Below are positions 6,713-31,987 of a stretch of DNA of 46,739 nucleotides, piece by piece (the stretch's first letter is position 1; the number at the start of each line of letters is the position of its first letter). The notes beneath the pieces were generated by a model that was not told the origin of the DNA, made no database searches, and saw only the letters and a program-made list of their open reading frames with translations. Source of the DNA: an uncultured Candidatus Actinomarina sp. (GTDB lineage: Bacteria; Actinomycetota; Acidimicrobiia; Actinomarinales; Actinomarinaceae); contig CACDQN010000003.1 in NCBI GenBank assembly GCA_902555055.1, positions 79,860-126,598 on the forward strand, in the 5' to 3' direction. The position numbers were made by a program, and so were the translations under genes.

Positions 6713-7958
6713 TTATAACCTTGGAGTCGTTGGCTTAGGATATGTAGGATTACCGTTGGCTGTTGAATCTGCAAATTCAAAATTGAGTGTTTTAGGCTTT
6801 GATACAAGTAGTAATAGAGTTGAGGAAATTAATAATGGCCACTCTCCAATTGAAGATATTTCAGATGATGAATTAGAAAATGCTTTAAATAGCTTTTTCT
6901 CTACAGATGACCCTACTTTACTATCTAAATGTCATCATATTGTCATTAGTGTCCCCACACCCCTTACTGATTATCAGCCTGATTTGTCCTATGTTGAGGC
7001 AGCAGCAAAGTCTGTCGGTGAAAACTTAGTTCCTAATCAAATAATTATTCTTGAATCTACTACTTACCCTGGAACTACTTTAGAGGTTCTTATTCCAAAT
7101 CTCGAAAAATACTCGTCTTTAAAGGCAGGTTCTGATTTTTATGTTGGATATTCACCTGAGAGGATTGACCCCGGTAATGAGGAGTGGAAGTTTAAAAATA
7201 CTCCAAAAGTCATCAGTGGAATAAACGAAGAATCTCTCAATAAAATAAAATCATTTTATGAACAAATTGTTGATGAGGTTGTAGTTGTTAAAGGCACTAA
7301 AGAAGCAGAGATGGTTAAGCTTCTTGAAAATACATATCGTCACGTAAATATAGCTTTAATTAATGAACTTGCCATGCTTTGTAAAATGCTAGACATTGAC
7401 ATATGGGAAGTAGTAAATGCAGCAAAAACAAAACCTTTTGGATTTCAGTCTTTTAAACCAGGTCCTGGGGTTGGAGGCCATTGTATACCAGTAGACCCCG
7501 AGTATTTATCATTTAAAACTCGCCAAATTGGCAAGCCAGTCAGATTTGTAGAATTAGCTCAGGAAATTAACAACTCTATGCCCGCTTATGTTGTTAGTAG
7601 AGTTAATGAATTATTAAATAGTCAAGATAAAATATTAAGAAACTCTAAAATTTTAATTCTGGGTGTTGCTTATAAAAAAGATATTAGTGATACAAGAGAG
7701 TCACCATCATTAGATATATTAGAACTTCTTATTGAAAAAAATGCTGAAGTGTCTTTCTATGATCCGTTTGTAAAAGAATTAACTATTGCAGGCCAAAGCA
7801 TTAATAAAGAATCCTTATCTAAGAATTTTCATGATTATGACATGTTATTAATTCTCACACCGCATACAGAGTTTTCAGAAATTGATTTTGAGATATTAAA
7901 TAATATAGTATTTGATACCACCGGAAGTAATTTTATTAAAAGCACCGAAAGGATTTAA
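6699..7958 (+). CDS. UDP-N-acetylhexosamine 6-dehydrogenase (WecC/WbpA type)
   Basis: A 419-residue NAD-dependent enzyme that oxidises C6 of a UDP-sugar to a carboxylate. Visible features are the NAD-binding GLGYVGLPLA at residues 10-19, VISVPTPL, ESTTYPGTT, GYSPERIDPGN, and the catalytic Cys in GPGVGGHCIPVDPEYL near residue 260, followed by the UDP-binding C-terminal domain with GVAYKKDISDTRESP. The start is TTG at 6699 with a clear AGGAG (6687-6691) 7 nt upstream. The adjacent epimerase suggests UDP-ManNAc as substrate (WecC), but the FGFQ-F--GPG segment also resembles UDP-GlcNAc 6-dehydrogenases of the WbpA type, so the substrate is left open. Confidence 0.88.
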   Translation: MNKFDYNLGVVGLGYVGLPLAVESANSKLSVLGFDTSSNRVEEINNGHSPIEDISDDELENALNSFFSTDDPTLLSKCHHIVISVPTPLTDYQPDLSYVEAAAKSVGENLVPNQIIILESTTYPGTTLEVLIPNLEKYSSLKAGSDFYVGYSPERIDPGNEEWKFKNTPKVISGINEESLNKIKSFYEQIVDEVVVVKGTKEAEMVKLLENTYRHVNIALINELAMLCKMLDIDIWEVVNAAKTKPFGFQSFKPGPGVGGHCIPVDPEYLSFKTRQIGKPVRFVELAQEINNSMPAYVVSRVNELLNSQDKILRNSKILILGVAYKKDISDTRESPSLDILELLIEKNAEVSFYDPFVKELTIAGQSINKESLSKNFHDYDMLLILTPHTEFSEIDFEILNNIVFDTTGSNFIKSTERI

Positions 7959-18314: not shown

Positions 18315-18322
18315 GAGTTTTT

Positions 18323-18650
18323 GTGAAACTATAAGCCGGATTCTGTATACGAAAAACGTATGATAATCATCCATCTTGTGTACTTGTTACCAAATACATC
18401 TAGCTACTTACCCGCAATTATTAACCGAGCAGGCTAATTGCTTCTTAGTATTGCTCCAAGAGGGGTTTACAAGCTAATCTGATTACTCAAATTACTGGTA
18501 GTCTCTTACACCACCTTTTCACCCTTACTTATTTTCATAAGCGGTTTGTTTTCTGTTGCACTATCCGTCAATTACTTGCCTGGGAGTTACCCAGCTCTTT
18601 GCTCTGTGGAGTCCGGACTTTCCTCGATAAATCGCGATTATCCGTTTCAC
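18323..18650 (-). ncRNA. rnpB: RNase P RNA (type A-like)
   Basis: The catalytic RNA that trims the 5' leaders of tRNA precursors. Read on the minus strand it contains GAGGAAAGTCCGGACTCCAC (conserved region I, 5' strand of P4), a GGGTAACTCCC hairpin, GACGGATAGTGCAACAGAAA, GGTGAAAAGGTGGTGTAAGA and, near the 3' end, ACAGAATCCGGCTTAT, which closes P4. The ends were set by the P1 pairing GTGAAAC (18650 to 18644) with GTTTCAC (18329 to 18323). It accounts for most of the 413-bp stretch 18260-18672 that lacks a protein gene. It begins only 22 nt after the ccmG stop codon on the same strand, so it may be made from its own promoter inside ccmG or processed from a longer transcript. Confidence 0.96.
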
Positions 18651-18672
18651 ATTTTAAGTTTACATAGTAAAT

Positions 18673-25495: not shown

Positions 25496-26081
25496 TATGT
25501 ATAAGTTTTTTCCTTTTTATTTCTTTAGATTTCGTAATAATAGATTCATTTTGTACACCAGCAGTTATTAATCCTATTACTAAATAATTTTCAGGTATGT
25601 TCAATAATTTATTAACTTCTTTTCTATCAGTATTATGAAGTCCCATAAATCCACTTGAAAGACCCTTCTCTTCTATTAGTAACATACAATTCATCATTGA
25701 AGCTCCTGCATCTACAAACCAGTAAGGTACATCCCAATCCTTTGAATTTACAGCTTTTGCTTTATCACTCTTAGAATATCGTTGATGATAAGCATCTTCA
25801 TTTAGAAGTATAAAAAATAAAGCTACGGAATGAGAAATCCAAGGATCTTTACCTTCTTCAATATATTTTCTCTCATGAAATAAATTAGAGATTTTATCTA
25901 TAGTTTCTGTATTAAAAACTTGGATAATTTCAATACCTCTTGAAAATCCTGCGGTTGGTATTTTTATTGAATAACTTGCTATATTTTTTAGAGATTCAGT
26001 ATCGAAATTAACTTTTTTATAACTTCTAACTATTTTCCGTTTTGATAAGAGTTCTTCTAAGTGTGATAAAGCATTATTCAT
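25476..26081 (-). CDS. Nitroreductase-family FMN oxidoreductase
   Basis: A 201-residue protein of the nitroreductase fold. RKIVRSYKKVNFDTESLKNI holds the FMN phosphate-binding Arg residues, APTAG-like PTAGFSRG lies at the usual place, ASMMNCMLLIEEKGLSSGFMGL matches the second FMN-contacting helix, and LVIGLITAGVQNE is the end of the core. It sits in the leu/ilv unit, overlapping leuB by 8 bp, but has no known part in branched-chain synthesis. Members reduce nitro groups, quinones or flavins with NAD(P)H; the natural substrate is unknown. Confidence 0.82.
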   Translation of the reverse strand: MNNALSHLEELLSKRKIVRSYKKVNFDTESLKNIASYSIKIPTAGFSRGIEIIQVFNTETIDKISNLFHERKYIEEGKDPWISHSVALFFILLNEDAYHQRYSKSDKAKAVNSKDWDVPYWFVDAGASMMNCMLLIEEKGLSSGFMGLHNTDRKEVNKLLNIPENYLVIGLITAGVQNESIITKSKEIKRKKLIHNEKFSK

Positions 26082-27141
26082 TTTGACTTAGTAAAGAATT
26101 TAAAACCATATCGCCCACTTCACTTGTTGACATACCCATTTTTCCAGCAGAAAGTGATTTTAAACTAATTGCTGTCTCTATGATTGCATTTTCAATATCT
26201 TTTGAATATTTTTCTTCACCTAATTCTTTCACCATCATTGCAGCAGCACCAATGCAGGCAAGTGGATTGATTACATTTTTGTCAGTATATTTTGGCGCAG
26301 ACCCTCCAATGGGTTCAAACATAGATGTACCCTCTGGGTTGATATTACCTCCAGCTGCTATTCCCATGCCACCTTGAATCATCGCTCCAAGGTCAGTAAT
26401 TATGTCTCCAAACATATTATCTGTAACAATTACATCAAACCATTCTGGATTCTTTACCATCCACATGCAAATTGCATCTACATGTCCATAATCAGTCTCT
26501 ATATCTGGATATTCTTCAGCAACTTGATAAAATATTCTTTCCCAGAGATCATGTGCGTAAGTTAGAACGTTAGTTTTAGCACACAGTGTCACTTTTTTTC
26601 TGTTGTTATTTTTTGCATATTCAAATGCATATTTGATACATCTATGAATAGCAAAGTGTGTATTAATAGACTCTTGTGTAGCCACTTCATTTTTAGTGCC
26701 ATAATGAATGTACCCACCTGCACCGGCATAGAGTCCTTCAGTATTCTCTCTAACTACAATGAAATTAATATCTTCGGGGTTTTTATTGGCTAAAGGTGTT
26801 TCTACACCTGGATATAATATAACTGGTCTTAAATTTATATATTGATCAAACTCTTTTCTTAATTTTAATAAGATACCTTGCTCAAGTATCCCAGGCTTTA
26901 CATCAGGATGTCCTATTGCACCAAGTAAAACTGCATCTGCGTTTTTAAACTGTTGTATATCCTTTTCTGTAACAAGTGTTTTAGTTTCAATGTATCGATT
27001 TCCACCTAGGTCATTTTCTGAAAAATTAAACTCTACTCCGTAATTTTTTTGAGATTCCACTAAGACTTTTACTGCTTCTCTCACTACTTCTGGCCCCGTA
27101 CCATCACCAGCTAATAATGCTATATTCAATTTTTTACTCAT
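26074..27141 (-). CDS. leuB: 3-Isopropylmalate dehydrogenase
   Basis: A 355-residue NAD-dependent decarboxylating dehydrogenase of leucine synthesis. The N-terminus [17 protein letters not shown], the substrate-binding [12 protein letters not shown], the metal/NAD-binding [18 protein letters not shown] and the [19 protein letters not shown] segment are all typical. Length matches the family (about 350-360). It follows leuA with a 4-bp overlap. The middle step, isopropylmalate isomerase (leuC/leuD), is not encoded in this window. Isocitrate or tartrate dehydrogenase is less likely given the leuA partner. Confidence 0.94.
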
Positions 27142-28628
27142 TTATTCAACGCATTCAAAAATGACTCTACCGATCCCTGTACCACATCAGTAGACACAGA
27201 ACGCCCCTGTTTCATAAGGTGACCATCATTTATAATCGTTACAATTTCAGCTGTTGCATCGGATCCTTTAGTTATGCTTTCAACTCTATAGTCAATAAGT
27301 GTTGCATCGGATTTAAGTATTTTTTTCACAGCTGTAAAAGCAGCATGAATCATTCCATCTCCTGTAGCTTCTTCAGTAATTTCTTTATCTCCAACCTTAA
27401 GGGTCACTTTAGCAGATGCATATTCATCTTTACTGTTGACCGATACAGACAAAAGTTTTGTATTACTTTGGTTTGTTTCAACCTGACCAACTATTGCTCT
27501 TAATTCATTTTCAACTATTTCACCTTTTCTATCAGCTATTTTCTTAAAAGTATTGAATGCATTGTCAAAAGAGTCACTATCAAGTGTTATGTTTAAGTTA
27601 TTTAATGCATCTTTAAATCCGGCTCTTCCAGAATGCTTACCAAGGATAATTTTTGCTTCTTGTCCAACAGAGTCGGGGGACATAATTTCGTATGTTGAAG
27701 TATTTCTTAGATATCCATGTTGATGTATACCTGATTCATGACTAAATGCATTTTTTCCAACTACTGCCTTATTGAACTGAACTGGATACCCAGTCAATTT
27801 AGATACAAGACGTGATGTTTCAAATATTTCAGTAGTCTCTGCTTTGATATCAACACCAAATTGATCTTGCCTAGTTTTCACCGCCATAATTATTTCTTCT
27901 GTCGAGGTATTTCCAGCTCTTTCTCCAATTCCATTAATTGCGCCTTCTATCTGTCGTGCTCCTGCTGTTATAGCTGTAAGTGAATTAGCTACCGCCAATC
28001 CTAAATCATTATGGCAATGAGTAGAAATAATTACATCTTCATTTCCACCTTTTACTTGTTCATATACTTGGGATAAAAGTTCTAGGTAGTCCTGAGGAGT
28101 AGCATAGCCAACTGTATCGGGAACATTTATAGTTGTAGCACCTTCCTCAACTGCAGTTTTAAGTACTTCAATTAAAAAATCCTTGTCTGTTCTTGTGGCA
28201 TCTTGAGCTGAGAATTCTACATCTTCACAAAGTTTTTTGGCATATTTAACAGATTCTTTTGTGTCCTTTAGAATCTCGTCCTTACTTTTTCTTAGCATAT
28301 GCTCCATATGTATTTCAGAAGTCGATGTAAATACATGAATTCTCGAATCATTTGCAACTTTAATTGCTTCCCAAGCTTGCTCAATATCATCTGGATGACA
28401 TCTCGCAAGAGAAGCTATTGTTGAATTTTTAATATTTTGTGCAATTAGATTTACACCTTCCCAATCGCCAGGAGATGACGCAGCAAAACCGGCTTCAATA
28501 ACATCAACTTTTAATTTTTCTAACTGTTGAGCAATCAAGAGTTTCTCTGATGGTGTTAAAGCAATTCCAGGACTTTGCTCACCATCTCTAAGAGTCGTAT
28601 CAAAAATTACTAATTTATCATTATTCAT
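27138..28628 (-). CDS. leuA: 2-Isopropylmalate synthase
   Basis: A 496-residue enzyme of the first committed step of leucine synthesis (acetyl-CoA plus 2-oxoisovalerate). The DRE-TIM barrel opens with [13 protein letters not shown], contains [17 protein letters not shown] (metal-binding His pair) and [18 protein letters not shown], and is followed by a linker and a C-terminal LeuA allosteric domain (from about residue 390, with [14 protein letters not shown]), which normally binds leucine for feedback inhibition. It is preceded by ilvC and followed by leuB with 4-bp overlaps on both sides. A citramalate synthase is possible but fits less well. Confidence 0.94.
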
Positions 28629-29641
28629 TTATTTTTAGTTACATCCTTTGCATCAAGAAAGGGCATCATATCTCTTAAGCTTTTTCCAATTTCTTCTATT
28701 TGGTGCTTTGAAGCTTCTTCTCTTTTTTCTTTAAGAAAAGGGGCCCCTTCTCTTGCTTGTGACATCCATTCTTTTGCAAATGCCCCAGATTGAATTTCAT
28801 CTAATACTTTTTTCATTTCTTTTTTTGTATCACTATTTATAATTCGAGAACCTCTAGAAAAATCACCATATTCAGCTGTATCAGAAATTGAATGTCTCAT
28901 CCATTCGAACCCACCTTCGTACATTAGGTCTACTATAAGTTTCACCTCATGCAATGTTTCAAAATATGCACTTTCAGGTTGATATCCAGCTTCAACTAAA
29001 GTTTCAAATCCATTCTTTATAAGTTCAGTTAAGCCTCCACATAAAACAACCTGTTCACCAAATAAATCTGTTTCAGTCTCTTCTTTAAAAGTAGTATTTA
29101 AAATCCCAGCTCTTCCACCTCCAATAGCAGAAGCATATGAAAGTGCAATCTCTTGAGTGTTTCCAGAAGTATCCCTATCTACAGCAACTAGACACGGCAT
29201 ACCACTACCTTCAGAGTAAGTTCTTCTTAGTAAATGACCAGGCCCTTTTGGAGCCACCATTGCAACAGATAAATCTTCTCTAGGCTTAATTTCATTAAAG
29301 TGAATGTTAAAGCCATGTGCGAACAATAAGGTAGAACCTTCTTTCATATATTCAGCAACCTCGGAGTTGTAAACATCTGCCATAACTTGATCGGGGAGAA
29401 GTAACATTACAACATCAGAATCTTTGGTAGCATTTTCAAGATTTGCAACACTAAGGCCCATTTCTTCTGCTCTTTGAAAAGAGGATGAATCTTCTCTAAG
29501 TCCAACAGTTACATTTACTCCTGATTCATGAAGGTTTAATGCATGGGCATGACCTTGACTCCCAAATCCAATAACTGCAACTTTTAAATTTTTTATTAAG
29601 TCTTGATTAATTGACGAATCATAAATTATTTTTGTTTCCAT
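28625..29641 (-). CDS. ilvC: Ketol-acid reductoisomerase (class I)
   Basis: A 338-residue enzyme converting acetolactate to dihydroxyisovalerate (and the isoleucine equivalent). The Rossmann motif [13 protein letters not shown], the cofactor loop LREDSSSF (Arg and Ser suggest NADPH use), [15 protein letters not shown] and the knotted all-helical C-domain with GEQVVLCGG and [19 protein letters not shown] are all present. The length marks the short class I form. The start has a good AAGGAG Shine-Dalgarno sequence, one of few in the window, because it follows ilvN with a 9-nt gap rather than an overlap. Confidence 0.97.
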
Positions 29642-29650
29642 TTTTTCTCC

Positions 29651-30124
29651 TTATAAATTTGATTGTATTGCTATTCTTCCGCCTCTTACCATTTCTATTA
29701 TTCCAAATGGTTTCATTAATTTTTCAAATTTATTTAACTCCTTGGATGATCCTGTCATTTCAAAAATTGCATAATCTTGACCCACGTCAACAGATTTTGC
29801 ACTAGATAAATTTGCTTTTTCAATTACAGAAGTTTGGGTGTCTTTATTTATTGATACTTTAAGTAAAAGTACCTCAGTTTCAATTGTCATTTCTGGATCT
29901 AACTCAACTATTTTTATGACATTAACTAATTTATTAAGTTGTTTTTTAACTTGCTCAACTGCGTCTAGTTCAGTAACTATTGTCATTTTAGATCTACCTT
30001 CAATATGGGTTGGACCTACTGATAATGAGTTAATATTAAAACCTCTTCTTGAGATTGTTGAAGATACTCTTGCAAGAACACCAGGTTTATCTTCTACTAA
30101 AACAGATAATATTCTTTCACTCAT
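29651..30124 (-). CDS. ilvN: Acetolactate synthase regulatory subunit
   Basis: A 157-residue small subunit with an N-terminal ACT domain (ILSVLVEDKPGVLARVSSTI followed by RRGFNINSLSVG) where valine binds in characterised relatives, and a second C-terminal ACT-like domain (about residues 80-157, ending VRGGRIAIQS). It activates the IlvB catalytic subunit and gives feedback control. Overlaps ilvB by 4 bp. This is the IlvH/IlvN long form (about 160 residues). Two control layers on the pathway are visible: this subunit and the attenuator upstream of ilvB. Confidence 0.95.
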   Translation of the reverse strand: MSERILSVLVEDKPGVLARVSSTISRRGFNINSLSVGPTHIEGRSKMTIVTELDAVEQVKKQLNKLVNVIKIVELDPEMTIETEVLLLKVSINKDTQTSVIEKANLSSAKSVDVGQDYAIFEMTGSSKELNKFEKLMKPFGIIEMVRGGRIAIQSNL

Positions 30125-31833
30125 AGTTGTTTCAAATCCTCTTTATTCATAATAATCTGATCATTACTTCCACCAGCCGGAACCATTGGGAAGACCATAT
30201 CATCTGGATCAACTACACAATCAATTAATACAGGTTTGTCATTTGTATTTAACATTTCAGTAAATATTTTTTTAACATCGTCTTTTTTTGTCATTCTTAA
30301 ACCAACAGCACCCATAGATTCTGCAAGTTTTACATAGTCGGGAGTATGATGTGTTAGTTCAGATGCCGAAAATTTACTGTTATAAAATATTTTTTGCCAC
30401 TGACGCACCATTCCGTGATTACCATTATTGAAAACTACAACTTTAATGGGAATATTTTCAGTCGAAGCTGTTATAAGCTCTTGGCATGTCATTTGAAAAC
30501 ATCCATCACCATCTAAAGCCAAAACTAATTTATCTGGAAATGCTGTTTGAGCTCCGATTGCGGCTGGTAATGAATATCCCATTGTTCCAAGGCCTCCAGA
30601 ATTTAACCAGGTATGAGGTTCGGTAAAATTCCAATGTTGAGAAATCCACATTTGATGTTGTCCTACACCCGATACAACCACGGCCTCTTCTTCTGTTAGA
30701 TTTTGAAGCTGTTCTAGAACATACGGAACCTTTAACGGCCCATCATCTTTTTGATCATAAGAGAGTGGAAAATTTTGTTTCATATCTTTCAAATCATTAA
30801 TCCAACTTGCAGTATCCAAGTCTGAGCCCTTTAATGCTTCTATCAAGCCAATCAAGACACTTTTGGCATCTCCTACAATTGGTACCTGAGCTTCTCGAAC
30901 CTTTCCTATTTCCGCTGGGTCAATATCTGCATGAATTACTTTTGCATTTTGTGCAAAAAAATCAGGATTTGCTGTAACACGGTCATCAAACCTAACACCT
31001 ATAGCAATTAACAGATCTGAATTCTGAATTGAGGTAGTAGCAGTATAATTTCCGTGCATACCTGGCATTTCTAAGCAGAGTTCATGTCCATCAGGAAATG
31101 CACCCCTTCCCATTAAAGTTGTGACTACTGGTATATTATATGTAGTTGCTAAGTCGTAGAGTTCTTTATGAGACTTAGAGTGAATTATTCCACCTCCTAC
31201 ATAAAGTATTGGTTTTTTTGATGACTTTATTAAAGTAGCAGCTTGTTGGATCATTTTTGGATTTGGCTCTAAGGTTGGTTTATAACCCGGAAGATCTAAA
31301 CTCTTAGGCTCCACCCAGATTGTTTTTTGATTAAGTATATCTTTTGGTACATCTACTAAGACAGGCCCAGGTCTTCCAGATGTTGCAATATATTTTGCTT
31401 CTTTGAGGACTTGAGGTATTTCAGATGCATCAGTAATTAAATAATTATGCTTAGTAGCTGCCATTGACAATCCAACAGTGTACGCTTCCTGAAAGGCATC
31501 ATTACCAATAGCAGTAGATGCTACTTGGCCAGTGATTGCCAATAAAGGAGTAGAGTCCATAAGTGCATTTGCTAGGGGAGTAATCAGGTTTGTAGCGCCA
31601 GGACCAGAAGTAGCAATTACAACACCAAGTTCTCCTGTGGCTTGAGCATAACCTTCAGCCATATGACCAGCTCCTTGTTCGTGTCTAGCTAATATATGTC
31701 TTATTGGACTGTCATATAAAGGATCATAAGCTGGAAGAATAGCTCCACCAGGAACTCCAAAAACCGTAGAAACATTTAAATGTTCCAAACTTCTTACAAT
31801 TAGTTCTGCACCTGTAATCAATTCTTTTGTCAT
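30121..31833 (-). CDS. ilvB: Acetolactate synthase large subunit
   Basis: A 570-residue thiamine-diphosphate enzyme catalysing the first shared step of valine, leucine and isoleucine synthesis. FGVPGGAILPAYD opens the PYR domain, RHEQGAGHMAEGYA carries the catalytic Glu, a FAD-binding-like middle domain follows, and GDGCFQMTCQELIT continuing to FNNGNHGMVRQW is the ThDP/Mg GDG-NN motif. Length is normal. The ATG at 31833 lies 24 nt after the attenuator T-run, with a GAGGAAG sequence roughly 13 nt before it. Expression is expected to depend on read-through of the upstream attenuator. Confidence 0.97.
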   Translation of the reverse strand: MTKELITGAELIVRSLEHLNVSTVFGVPGGAILPAYDPLYDSPIRHILARHEQGAGHMAEGYAQATGELGVVIATSGPGATNLITPLANALMDSTPLLAITGQVASTAIGNDAFQEAYTVGLSMAATKHNYLITDASEIPQVLKEAKYIATSGRPGPVLVDVPKDILNQKTIWVEPKSLDLPGYKPTLEPNPKMIQQAATLIKSSKKPILYVGGGIIHSKSHKELYDLATTYNIPVVTTLMGRGAFPDGHELCLEMPGMHGNYTATTSIQNSDLLIAIGVRFDDRVTANPDFFAQNAKVIHADIDPAEIGKVREAQVPIVGDAKSVLIGLIEALKGSDLDTASWINDLKDMKQNFPLSYDQKDDGPLKVPYVLEQLQNLTEEEAVVVSGVGQHQMWISQHWNFTEPHTWLNSGGLGTMGYSLPAAIGAQTAFPDKLVLALDGDGCFQMTCQELITASTENIPIKVVVFNNGNHGMVRQWQKIFYNSKFSASELTHHTPDYVKLAESMGAVGLRMTKKDDVKKIFTEMLNTNDKPVLIDCVVDPDDMVFPMVPAGGSNDQIIMNKEDLKQL

Positions 31834-31857: not shown

Positions 31858-31908
31858 AAAAAAAAACCCCCCCGTTTTGGGAGGCGCTCATCACAGCAAA
31901 ATGAGCGC
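31858..31908 (-). terminator. ilvB transcription attenuator (two adjacent hairpins and a U-run)
   Basis: Downstream of the leader peptide on the minus strand are two hairpins. The first pairs GCGCTCAT (31908 to 31901) with ATGAGCGC (31891 to 31884), an 8-bp stem with a 9-nt loop, and its 5' arm begins right at the leader stop codon. The second is a rho-independent terminator: CCTCCC (31884 to 31879) pairs with GGGGGG (31872 to 31867) through one wobble, followed by nine T residues (31866 to 31858). The arms of the two meet and share the base pair position at 31884. A ribosome finishing the leader would cover the first hairpin and leave the terminator free; a ribosome stalled earlier would let the first hairpin form and disturb the terminator. 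The mechanism is inferred. Confidence 0.82.
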
Positions 31909-31958
31909 TAAATAAGTAATAGCACTAATACTGAAATGAATACAGCTAAATTTTTCAT
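31908..31958 (-). CDS. ilv leader peptide (attenuator sensor)
   Basis: A 16-residue reading frame, MKNLAVFISVLVLLLI, starting with ATG at 31958 and ending with TAG at 31910 to 31908. Ten of the 16 residues are branched-chain amino acids (five Leu, three Val, two Ile), and six of the last seven are Leu, Val or Ile. It lies between the promoter and the terminator of the ilvB attenuator. Its stop codon touches the 5' arm of the first hairpin, so ribosome position would control folding. A TATAGT -10 box ends 7 nt before the ATG, so the leader mRNA is probably leaderless. The peptide itself is presumed to have no other function. Confidence 0.85.
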   Translation of the reverse strand: MKNLAVFISVLVLLLI

Positions 31959-31965
31959 TAAAATA

Positions 31966-31973
31966 ACTATAGT
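31966..31973. promoter_or_regulatory. Shared palindromic -10 element, ilvB leader and queG
   Basis: ACTATAGT reads the same on both strands, giving TATAGT toward the ilv leader (7 nt before its ATG at 31958) and TATAGT toward queG (14 nt before its ATG at 31988). No good -35 box was found on either side. If used by both genes, the two polymerases would exclude each other at this site. Confidence 0.5.
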
Positions 31974-31987
31974 AAAAGGTTAGAAAA

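Follow-up and report, generated by a model that had tools for sequence, protein, structure and literature searches.

The window analysed here, a 46,739-nucleotide stretch of a contig from an uncultured Candidatus Actinomarina sp. (GenBank CACDQN010000003.1, positions 79,860 to 126,598; host draft genome, 1.01 Mb, 82% complete), carries the genes ilvB, ilvN, ilvC, leuA, and leuB on its minus strand, preceded by a short leader reading frame and predicted RNA hairpins. The IlvB proteins of the closest named relatives (81 to 88% identity) belong mostly to uncultured Candidatus Actinomarina, with one from an Acidimicrobiia bacterium. They place the host among marine actinobacteria with small genomes (Actinomycetota, Acidimicrobiia) and led to rejection of an initial assignment to a SAR11-like alphaproteobacterium. 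The features of the locus are listed below in window coordinates, with the basis of each, or the protein profile with its score and cut-off, in parentheses.

31966..31973, readable on both strands: palindrome ACTATAGT, holding a candidate −10 box TATAGT at 31971-31966 on the minus strand (conservation)
31908..31958, minus: leader open reading frame MKNLAVFISVLVLLLI, 16 codons, ATG at 31958 and TAG at 31910-31908
31904..31926, minus: H1, putative anti-antiterminator (predicted folds, codon controls)
31884..31908, minus: H2, putative antiterminator hairpin (sequence, class covariation)
31867..31885, minus: H3, predicted intrinsic terminator stem-loop (terminator scan, folds, class covariation)
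31858..31866, minus: T tract of H3, exactly nine T (sequence)
30121..31833, minus: ilvB, acetolactate synthase large subunit (TIGR00118, 764 bits, cut-off 538)
29651..30124, minus: ilvN, acetolactate synthase small subunit (TIGR00119, 145 bits, cut-off 57)
28625..29641, minus: ilvC, ketol-acid reductoisomerase (TIGR00465, 445 bits, cut-off 226)
27138..28628, minus: leuA, 2-isopropylmalate synthase (TIGR00973, 618 bits, cut-off 599)
26074..27141, minus: leuB, 3-isopropylmalate dehydrogenase (NF002898, 496 bits, cut-off 393)

The RNase P RNA (bacterial class A; 272.6 bits) lies elsewhere in the window, at 18316-18653 on the minus strand.

An earlier note, made from the letters of the window, had described a 16-codon frame with ten Leu/Val/Ile residues upstream of ilvB, an 8-bp hairpin beginning at the leader stop codon, and then a terminator with nine T. 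The coordinates bear this out, with all parts on the minus strand in the order leader frame, H2, H3, nine T, and ilvB. Leu, Val, or Ile is encoded by 10 of the 16 codons of MKNLAVFISVLVLLLI, and the putative sensor codons TTA GTG CTA TTA CTT (LVLLL) stand immediately 5′ of the last codon. The H2 arms are GCGCUCAU (31908-31901) and AUGAGCGC (31891-31884), the first G being the G of the leader stop codon, and H3 pairs (G)CCUCCC (31885/31884-31879) with a G run at 31873-31867 (plus U31866). The hairpins barely overlap, as that note had also held: one base (C31884) or two (with G31885) are shared in the window, and near-abutment is found class-wide. A third hairpin, H1, was absent from its account; here AGUGCUA (31926-31920, in the sensor codons) is predicted to pair with UAGCGCU (31910-31904, the stop codon and H2 5′ arm). 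Folding of the 154-nt leader region gave −42.3 kcal/mol (z = −4.2), a stability equalled by 0 of 200 shuffles, and a terminator scan over 4 kb returned 6 sites (2.3 in shuffles; standard deviation, 1.6), 4 of them registers of H3 alone.

The genus set comprised 34 loci with full upstream DNA (27 distinct, several named contigs being the same places as genus genomes), all of which kept the leader, H2, and H3 (H2 was read with the motif script in L023, L025, L026, and L036). A pattern spanning H2 and the start of H3 occurred in exactly one copy in each of 31 of the 39 genus genomes, and a reversed control pattern occurred in none. The eight pattern-free genomes (G004, G015, G017, G019, G022, G025, G026, and G028) had no ilvB match or a part of ilvB without the 5′ end; the element is thus present in 27/27 genus genomes having the ilvB 5′ end, a figure that omits four of the 31 pattern-bearing genomes (G198 to G201), which were outside the ilvB search. 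G017 (90% complete) and G022 (86%) carry cimA with a poly-Ile leader (L262 and L258, respectively), yet no ilvB match or ilvB attenuator. In L027 and L037, ilvB starts at residue 117 beside unrelated sequence (read in L027), probably in a chimeric single-cell contig.

The 15 distinct genus leader peptides vary in their N-terminal half and have Leu or Val at every residue from −2 to −6, while residue −1 is M, I, N, or K; the L005 leader is shorter by exactly one codon, with its frame intact. Leu and Val are thus conserved, and Ile is probably no main signal at the ilvB copy, where the codon before the stop varies. After H3, the T tract has 8 to 10 T in the genus, and the distance from the end of H3 to ilvB is 17 to 34 nt in the genus, with a class maximum of 97 nt.

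Outside the genus, the class set (Acidimicrobiia) held 73 ilvB loci, of which 66 passed a script for a terminator, H2 (5 or more pairs), and a leader; four were dropped for lack of a terminator, one of H2, and two of a leader, and among these L072, L079, and L106 keep the layout by eye. Among the class loci, L029 is the same place as L052, so that it was counted twice. In 62/66 class loci a stem with 7 pairs or more began no further than 3 nt from the first base of the stop codon; such a stem was seen in 7.6% of 13,200 dinucleotide-shuffled versions of these stretches. Leu, Val, or Ile accounted for 21% of residues at −1 and 89 to 97% at −2 to −5 in the 62 distinct class leaders.

Stem pairing was assessed in alignment A2, made of 45 of the 65 distinct class stretches, hand-picked to thin near-duplicates and doubtful stems. 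In these sequences 91.7% of cells were paired, 0/500 shuffles reached any of five measures, and pairing dropped to 31 to 62% when the partner was slid by 1 to 3 columns. Both sides changed in 12/14 counted pairs (H2, 7/7; H3, 5/7). The alignment of relatives that the earlier note had proposed thus returned both of the signs it named, namely, conserved codons (Leu/Val at −2 to −6 in 15/15 genus peptides) and compensatory changes in both stems (45 class sequences). Folding and a covariance search, also proposed there, agreed: besides the z score given above, covariance model R2, built from the 45 A2 sequences with none from Actinomarina, found the window element (31860-31928; E = 9.7e-6) as its sole match in the host genome at E up to 1.

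R2 matched 106 of 119 class genomes, many of which carry two or three matches. Among the 13 class genomes with no match, three have a good ilvB (G038, G043, and G044), six lack one, and the remaining four were outside the ilvB search. Loss of the element where ilvB is kept, named earlier as evidence against attenuation, was accordingly found nowhere in the genus, and at class level the three R2-negative genomes with ilvB stand on the other side. Beyond the class, the script found no terminator in 11 of 28 phylum loci (L111, L113 to L120, L123, and L125); L114 (the same place as L073) was a miss of the criterion, and the other ten had no leader-like region by eye. L126 and L130 (with L128 and L134 by eye) appear to form one family, likely mycobacterial by resemblance. 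An LVVI leader is present in L126 and L130. In L130 the script places an H2-like stem next to the terminator (gap, −1), whereas it found the terminator only in the other three.

Many R2 matches lie upstream of other genes. We took 100 stretches (L150 to L249) around listed R2 matches, chosen mostly from multi-match genomes and not at random; 99 were usable (L167 was excluded, its element being that of L189) and 97 were distinct. A branched-chain gene lay downstream in 99/99, namely, ilvB in 37, leuB in 25, a cimA-like gene in 20, and leuA (two types) in 17, and one example of each checked by profile scored above cut-off (cimA, TIGR00977; leuA, TIGR00970 and TIGR00973; leuB, NF002898). Leader residues −2 to −5 were 85% Ile and 0% Leu before cimA (Leu absent in 20/20); 75 to 95% Leu with no Ile or Val before leuA (at least three Leu in 17/17); 55% Ile, 39% Val, and 0% Leu where leuB comes first (Leu absent in 24/24); and 36% Leu, 47% Val, and 12% Ile before ilvB (both Leu and Val in 32/36). 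No label permutation out of 5,000 reached the observed separation of codons by gene in the 97 distinct elements. The leader codons match the end product of each downstream gene, which is the strongest evidence for the codons as the sensor, and this natural swap of codons between copies strongly supports ribosome-mediated attenuation as the likely mode of action.

The sensor codons also have a sharp edge. Among the 97 elements, Leu, Ile, or Val stood at −1 in 9, at −2 in 94, at −3 in 95, at −4 in 95, and at −5 in 72, and exclusion at −1 agrees with the idea that a ribosome stalled on that codon would lie over H2. Actinomarina itself has a second copy, at cimA, which R2 missed and which was found by reading upstream of that gene: 14/14 genomes read, of 26 with cimA above cut-off, have a poly-Ile leader of 7 or 8 residues (e.g., MKKIIIII), an H2 of 8 to 10 pairs, and, 0 or 1 nt further on, an H3 of 7 pairs followed by a T tract. 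The host's own cimA copy (L252) is at 7259-7859 of the same contig, outside the window, and the others are L250, L251, and L253 to L263.

H2 and H3 compete for only one or two basal pairs in the genus and the window. Of the 66 class ilvB loci, 60 had H2 and the first G-C pair of H3 set 0 to 8 nt apart, 4 had them 13 nt apart, and in 2 they overlapped. The H2-H3 gap in the 97 elements was −2 to 7 except in two outliers, with 9 elements without an assigned gap. In the predicted folds H2 lowered the outer H3 pair by >0.1 in 1/66 class loci, so strict mutual exclusion appears to fail as a class-wide mechanism. An antiterminator formed by upstream pairing with the H3 5′ arm was also considered and dropped, since inspection of the leader by eye showed no G-rich stretch. 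In the class, H2 loops measure 3 to 20 nt (20 nt being the script limit), and abutment kept despite so variable a loop would favour a steric or kinetic action at the RNA exit, where a packed hairpin would keep the terminator from closing its final pairs or from having space to form. A broader scheme, to which we give somewhat less than even odds, is that ilvB, leuA, leuB, and cimA in the Acidimicrobiia share one abutting-hairpin scaffold with steric or kinetic antitermination and with specificity set by four or five codons, and that Actinomarina ilvB gained a codon-encoded, default-off anti-antiterminator.

That anti-antiterminator would be H1. With no ribosome, its pairing probability has a median of 0.995 over the 27 genus sequences (window, 0.995). 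The Val codon GTG in H1 is invariant in the leaders, yet GTG makes up 8.9% of the 440 Val codons in 17 window genes. For each of the 15 leaders, which are mutually related, so that the codon tests are not independent, the observed H1 probability beat at least 99.3% of 300 synonymous versions drawn at the codon frequencies of those 17 genes. When the leader's own codons were permuted (20 to 187 permutations per leader), the real order was best in 7/15 and among the best 8 in 15/15. Rare codons as the sole cause of the fixed GTG are doubtful, because permuting each leader's own codons lowers H1; four leaders are excepted (L015, L023, L024, and L025), with permuted means still at 0.60 to 0.84. 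H1 as a class-wide feature was rejected, ribosome-free H2 being predicted at >0.9 in 59/66 class loci. Since H1 is missing in most of the class, the relatives may be on by default and Actinomarina off.

Predicted folds of the ilvB leader were computed with a ribosome mask reaching 12 nt past the first base of the A site and are given as medians of the 27 genus sequences. For a ribosome that has reached the stop codon, the G-C pair at the base of H3 was at 0.999 (window, 0.87). With the A site at −4 or −5, H2 was at 1.0 and the H3 basal pair fell to 0.40 (range, 0.21 to 0.90; window, 0.21); L005 was at the upper end, with the pair still at 0.90. The pairs adjoining the U tract are the most vulnerable spot of a terminator. 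The inner H3 pairs persisted under the same stall (0.996), which means that the terminator is not lost in folds at equilibrium; in the window the one inner pair measured went from 0.86 to 0.52, its run of seven G allowing H3 several registers. These models suggest that the stalled-ribosome state trims the base of H3 instead of replacing the terminator. With no ribosome, H1 formed and H3 was intact. With a stall at −3 the H2-H3 clash was gone (basal pair, 0.999), and at −2 the mask covered H2, so that exposure of H2 by a stalled ribosome was seen at −4 and −5, partly at −3, and not at −2. Yet conservation at codons −2 and −3 is no lower than at −4 and −5, which indicates that the real footprint or mechanism differs from the mask model.

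Upstream of the leader, ACTATAGT is without variation in alignment A1 (26 genus sequences; L023 was excluded, its reference having ended early at a T run), and TATAGT ends 7 or 8 nt 5′ of the leader ATG in 27/27 distinct genus sequences (window, 7 nt). In the 66 class loci, 34 −10-like hexamers fell at the five offsets 6 to 10 nt before ATG and 26 at the other 40 offsets. A sigma-70 consensus scan found no promoter at the leader, and no good −35 box was seen by eye. The spacing of TATAGT makes it likely that transcription begins at the leader AUG or one or two bases before it, and the leader mRNA is probably leaderless. The ATG is separated by only 29 bp (31959-31987) from a divergent open reading frame preceding ilvD, which is QueG-like (TIGR00276, 167 bits, under the 200 cut-off). 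The conserved palindrome ACTATAGT could act as a −10 box for either strand, which would link ilvBNC-leuAB to queG-ilvD.

We consider the element to be a ribosome-mediated transcription attenuator that governs an ilvBNC-leuAB operon by sensing charged leucyl- and valyl-tRNA (probability, about 0.88). The reading is based on the sequence, conservation, covariation, the match of codons to genes, and predicted alternative folds, from which we infer the start site, termination, transcription as an operon, the sign of each state, and the weakening of H3 by H2. When Leu and Val are plentiful, the ribosome would reach the stop codon and cover the H2 5′ arm, and a full H3 would terminate transcription before ilvB. 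When Leu or Val is scarce, the ribosome would stall on LVLLL, blocking H1 and freeing H2, which, flush against H3, would take its one or two basal pairs and crowd the RNA exit, so that polymerase reads through. Without a ribosome on the leader, H1 would sequester H2 and the terminator would form, giving a default-off state. The attenuation first read from the layout of the locus is therefore backed by the fixed Leu/Val codons, the covariation of the class stems, and the codon-gene match, and the suggestion that H2 may act by crowding is plausible.

H2 and H3 might instead form a cooperative tandem terminator in which H2 aids termination, the leader being opposite in sign or a decoy. Hairpin clusters are reported to induce termination (PMC8355165), and in 65/66 class loci H2 has next to no effect on the outer H3 pair. 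Under such an arrangement, however, a ribosome at the stop codon would weaken termination under plenty, which is senseless with product-matched codons, and the window hairpins compete for one or two basal pairs; we hold this to be improbable. Slightly less probable still is a constitutive terminator with a conserved, unregulated short reading frame, or a trans-acting small RNA or peptide. There is a precedent in the leader peptide peTrpL, which works in trans in Sinorhizobium (PMC7298713), and an additional trans role for the leader is possible. Against a purely unregulated or trans-acting leader, residues −2 to −6 are Leu/Val in 15/15 genus peptides although the N-terminal half is variable, and the leader codons change with the downstream gene.

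Control of ilvB translation, with the leader hiding a ribosome-binding site, has in its favour that the 3′ arm of H3 reads GGGAGG in many genus copies and so resembles a Shine-Dalgarno sequence. However, H3 is followed by 8 to 10 T in the genus, its end lies 17 to 34 nt from ilvB there (in the class, as far as 97 nt), and genus copies have, by eye, a purine-rich sequence of their own past the T tract; this explanation ranks as very unlikely. We give the least credence to a ligand-binding element (a ppGpp riboswitch or T-box) or one of the named motifs ilvB-OMG and ilvB-II. A ppGpp riboswitch controls some bacterial ilvB genes (PMC10272879), but no Rfam family reached its gathering score in the window leader or in ten class or phylum loci. 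The window leader gave weak matches only: Phe_leader scored 19 bits (cut-off, 55; E = 0.43), and RAGATH-12, on the opposite strand, scored 18.8 bits (cut-off, 75; E = 0.08).

This kind of attenuator is known already; what makes the present case interesting is the class family, with its swapped codons, and the puzzling abutment of the hairpins. In that family, a natural experiment, one scaffold carries four different sets of codons (Ile, Leu, Leu plus Val, and Ile plus Val), and the sensor codons have a sharp edge, −1 being excluded and −2 to −5 used. The element also suggests that, in uncultured marine actinobacteria with very small genomes, an amino acid operon is tunable via the leader RNA itself. 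In the proteobacterial trp, leu, and ilv attenuators, the position of the ribosome on control codons selects between alternative hairpins, and the antiterminator and terminator share a whole arm. In contrast, the Actinomarina hairpins share only one or two bases, and those of most relatives share none.

Candidate ilvB leader peptides and terminators were listed in 2005 for Corynebacterium, Mycobacterium, and Streptomyces (PMC1262725) and are like the present element in having a short reading frame with Ile/Val/Leu runs and a terminator before ilvB; the available text of that study defines no ilvB antiterminator and mentions neither Acidimicrobiia nor cimA and leuB copies. It cites work on Streptomyces coelicolor in which changing the regulatory codons before ilvB left regulation unaffected (PMC1262725). 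We found no paper on a class-wide Acidimicrobiia family in the literature searched, the scope of which left out most subscription journals. For Mycobacterium tuberculosis ilvB1NC, an abundant terminated leader RNA of about 120 nt and a dependence on LVVI codons are described (PMC13236596). As proposed for Actinomarina, a leader rich in branched-chain codons, an antiterminator, and an intrinsic terminator precede ilvB, and the antiterminator is covered once a ribosome reaches the stop codon; the M. tuberculosis leader differs in its 166-nt length and in having no H1 in the part described (PMC13236596). The phylum loci L126 and L130, with their LVVI leader, have the same order as the M. tuberculosis attenuator.

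The closest counterpart is the Corynebacterium glutamicum ilvBNC attenuator, which has three hairpins, a leaderless leader, and an antiterminator and terminator overlapping at GCC; it has been tested by mutation, changes in the terminator-antiterminator region raising expression seven- to eight-fold (PMC11857589). Both systems place an H1 anti-antiterminator, an H2 antiterminator, an H3 terminator, and Leu and Val control codons before ilvBNC, those of Actinomarina being predicted, and in both H2 and H3 are adjacent, sharing a boundary GCC in C. glutamicum and the GC of GCC in Actinomarina (PMC11857589). The leader start lies 1 nt from the transcription start in C. glutamicum (PMC11857589), and in Actinomarina the start is predicted from the −10 box. 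An H1 that uses the H2 5′ arm is likewise common to these two and is not found in most class relatives. Actinomarina differs in that H2 begins in the stop codon, in that leuA and leuB follow ilvC, and in being known from sequence alone. In design, the Actinomarina attenuator thus appears to match that of C. glutamicum closely, and the two raise the same question of how a hairpin that barely touches a terminator (a three-base overlap in C. glutamicum) would disable it.
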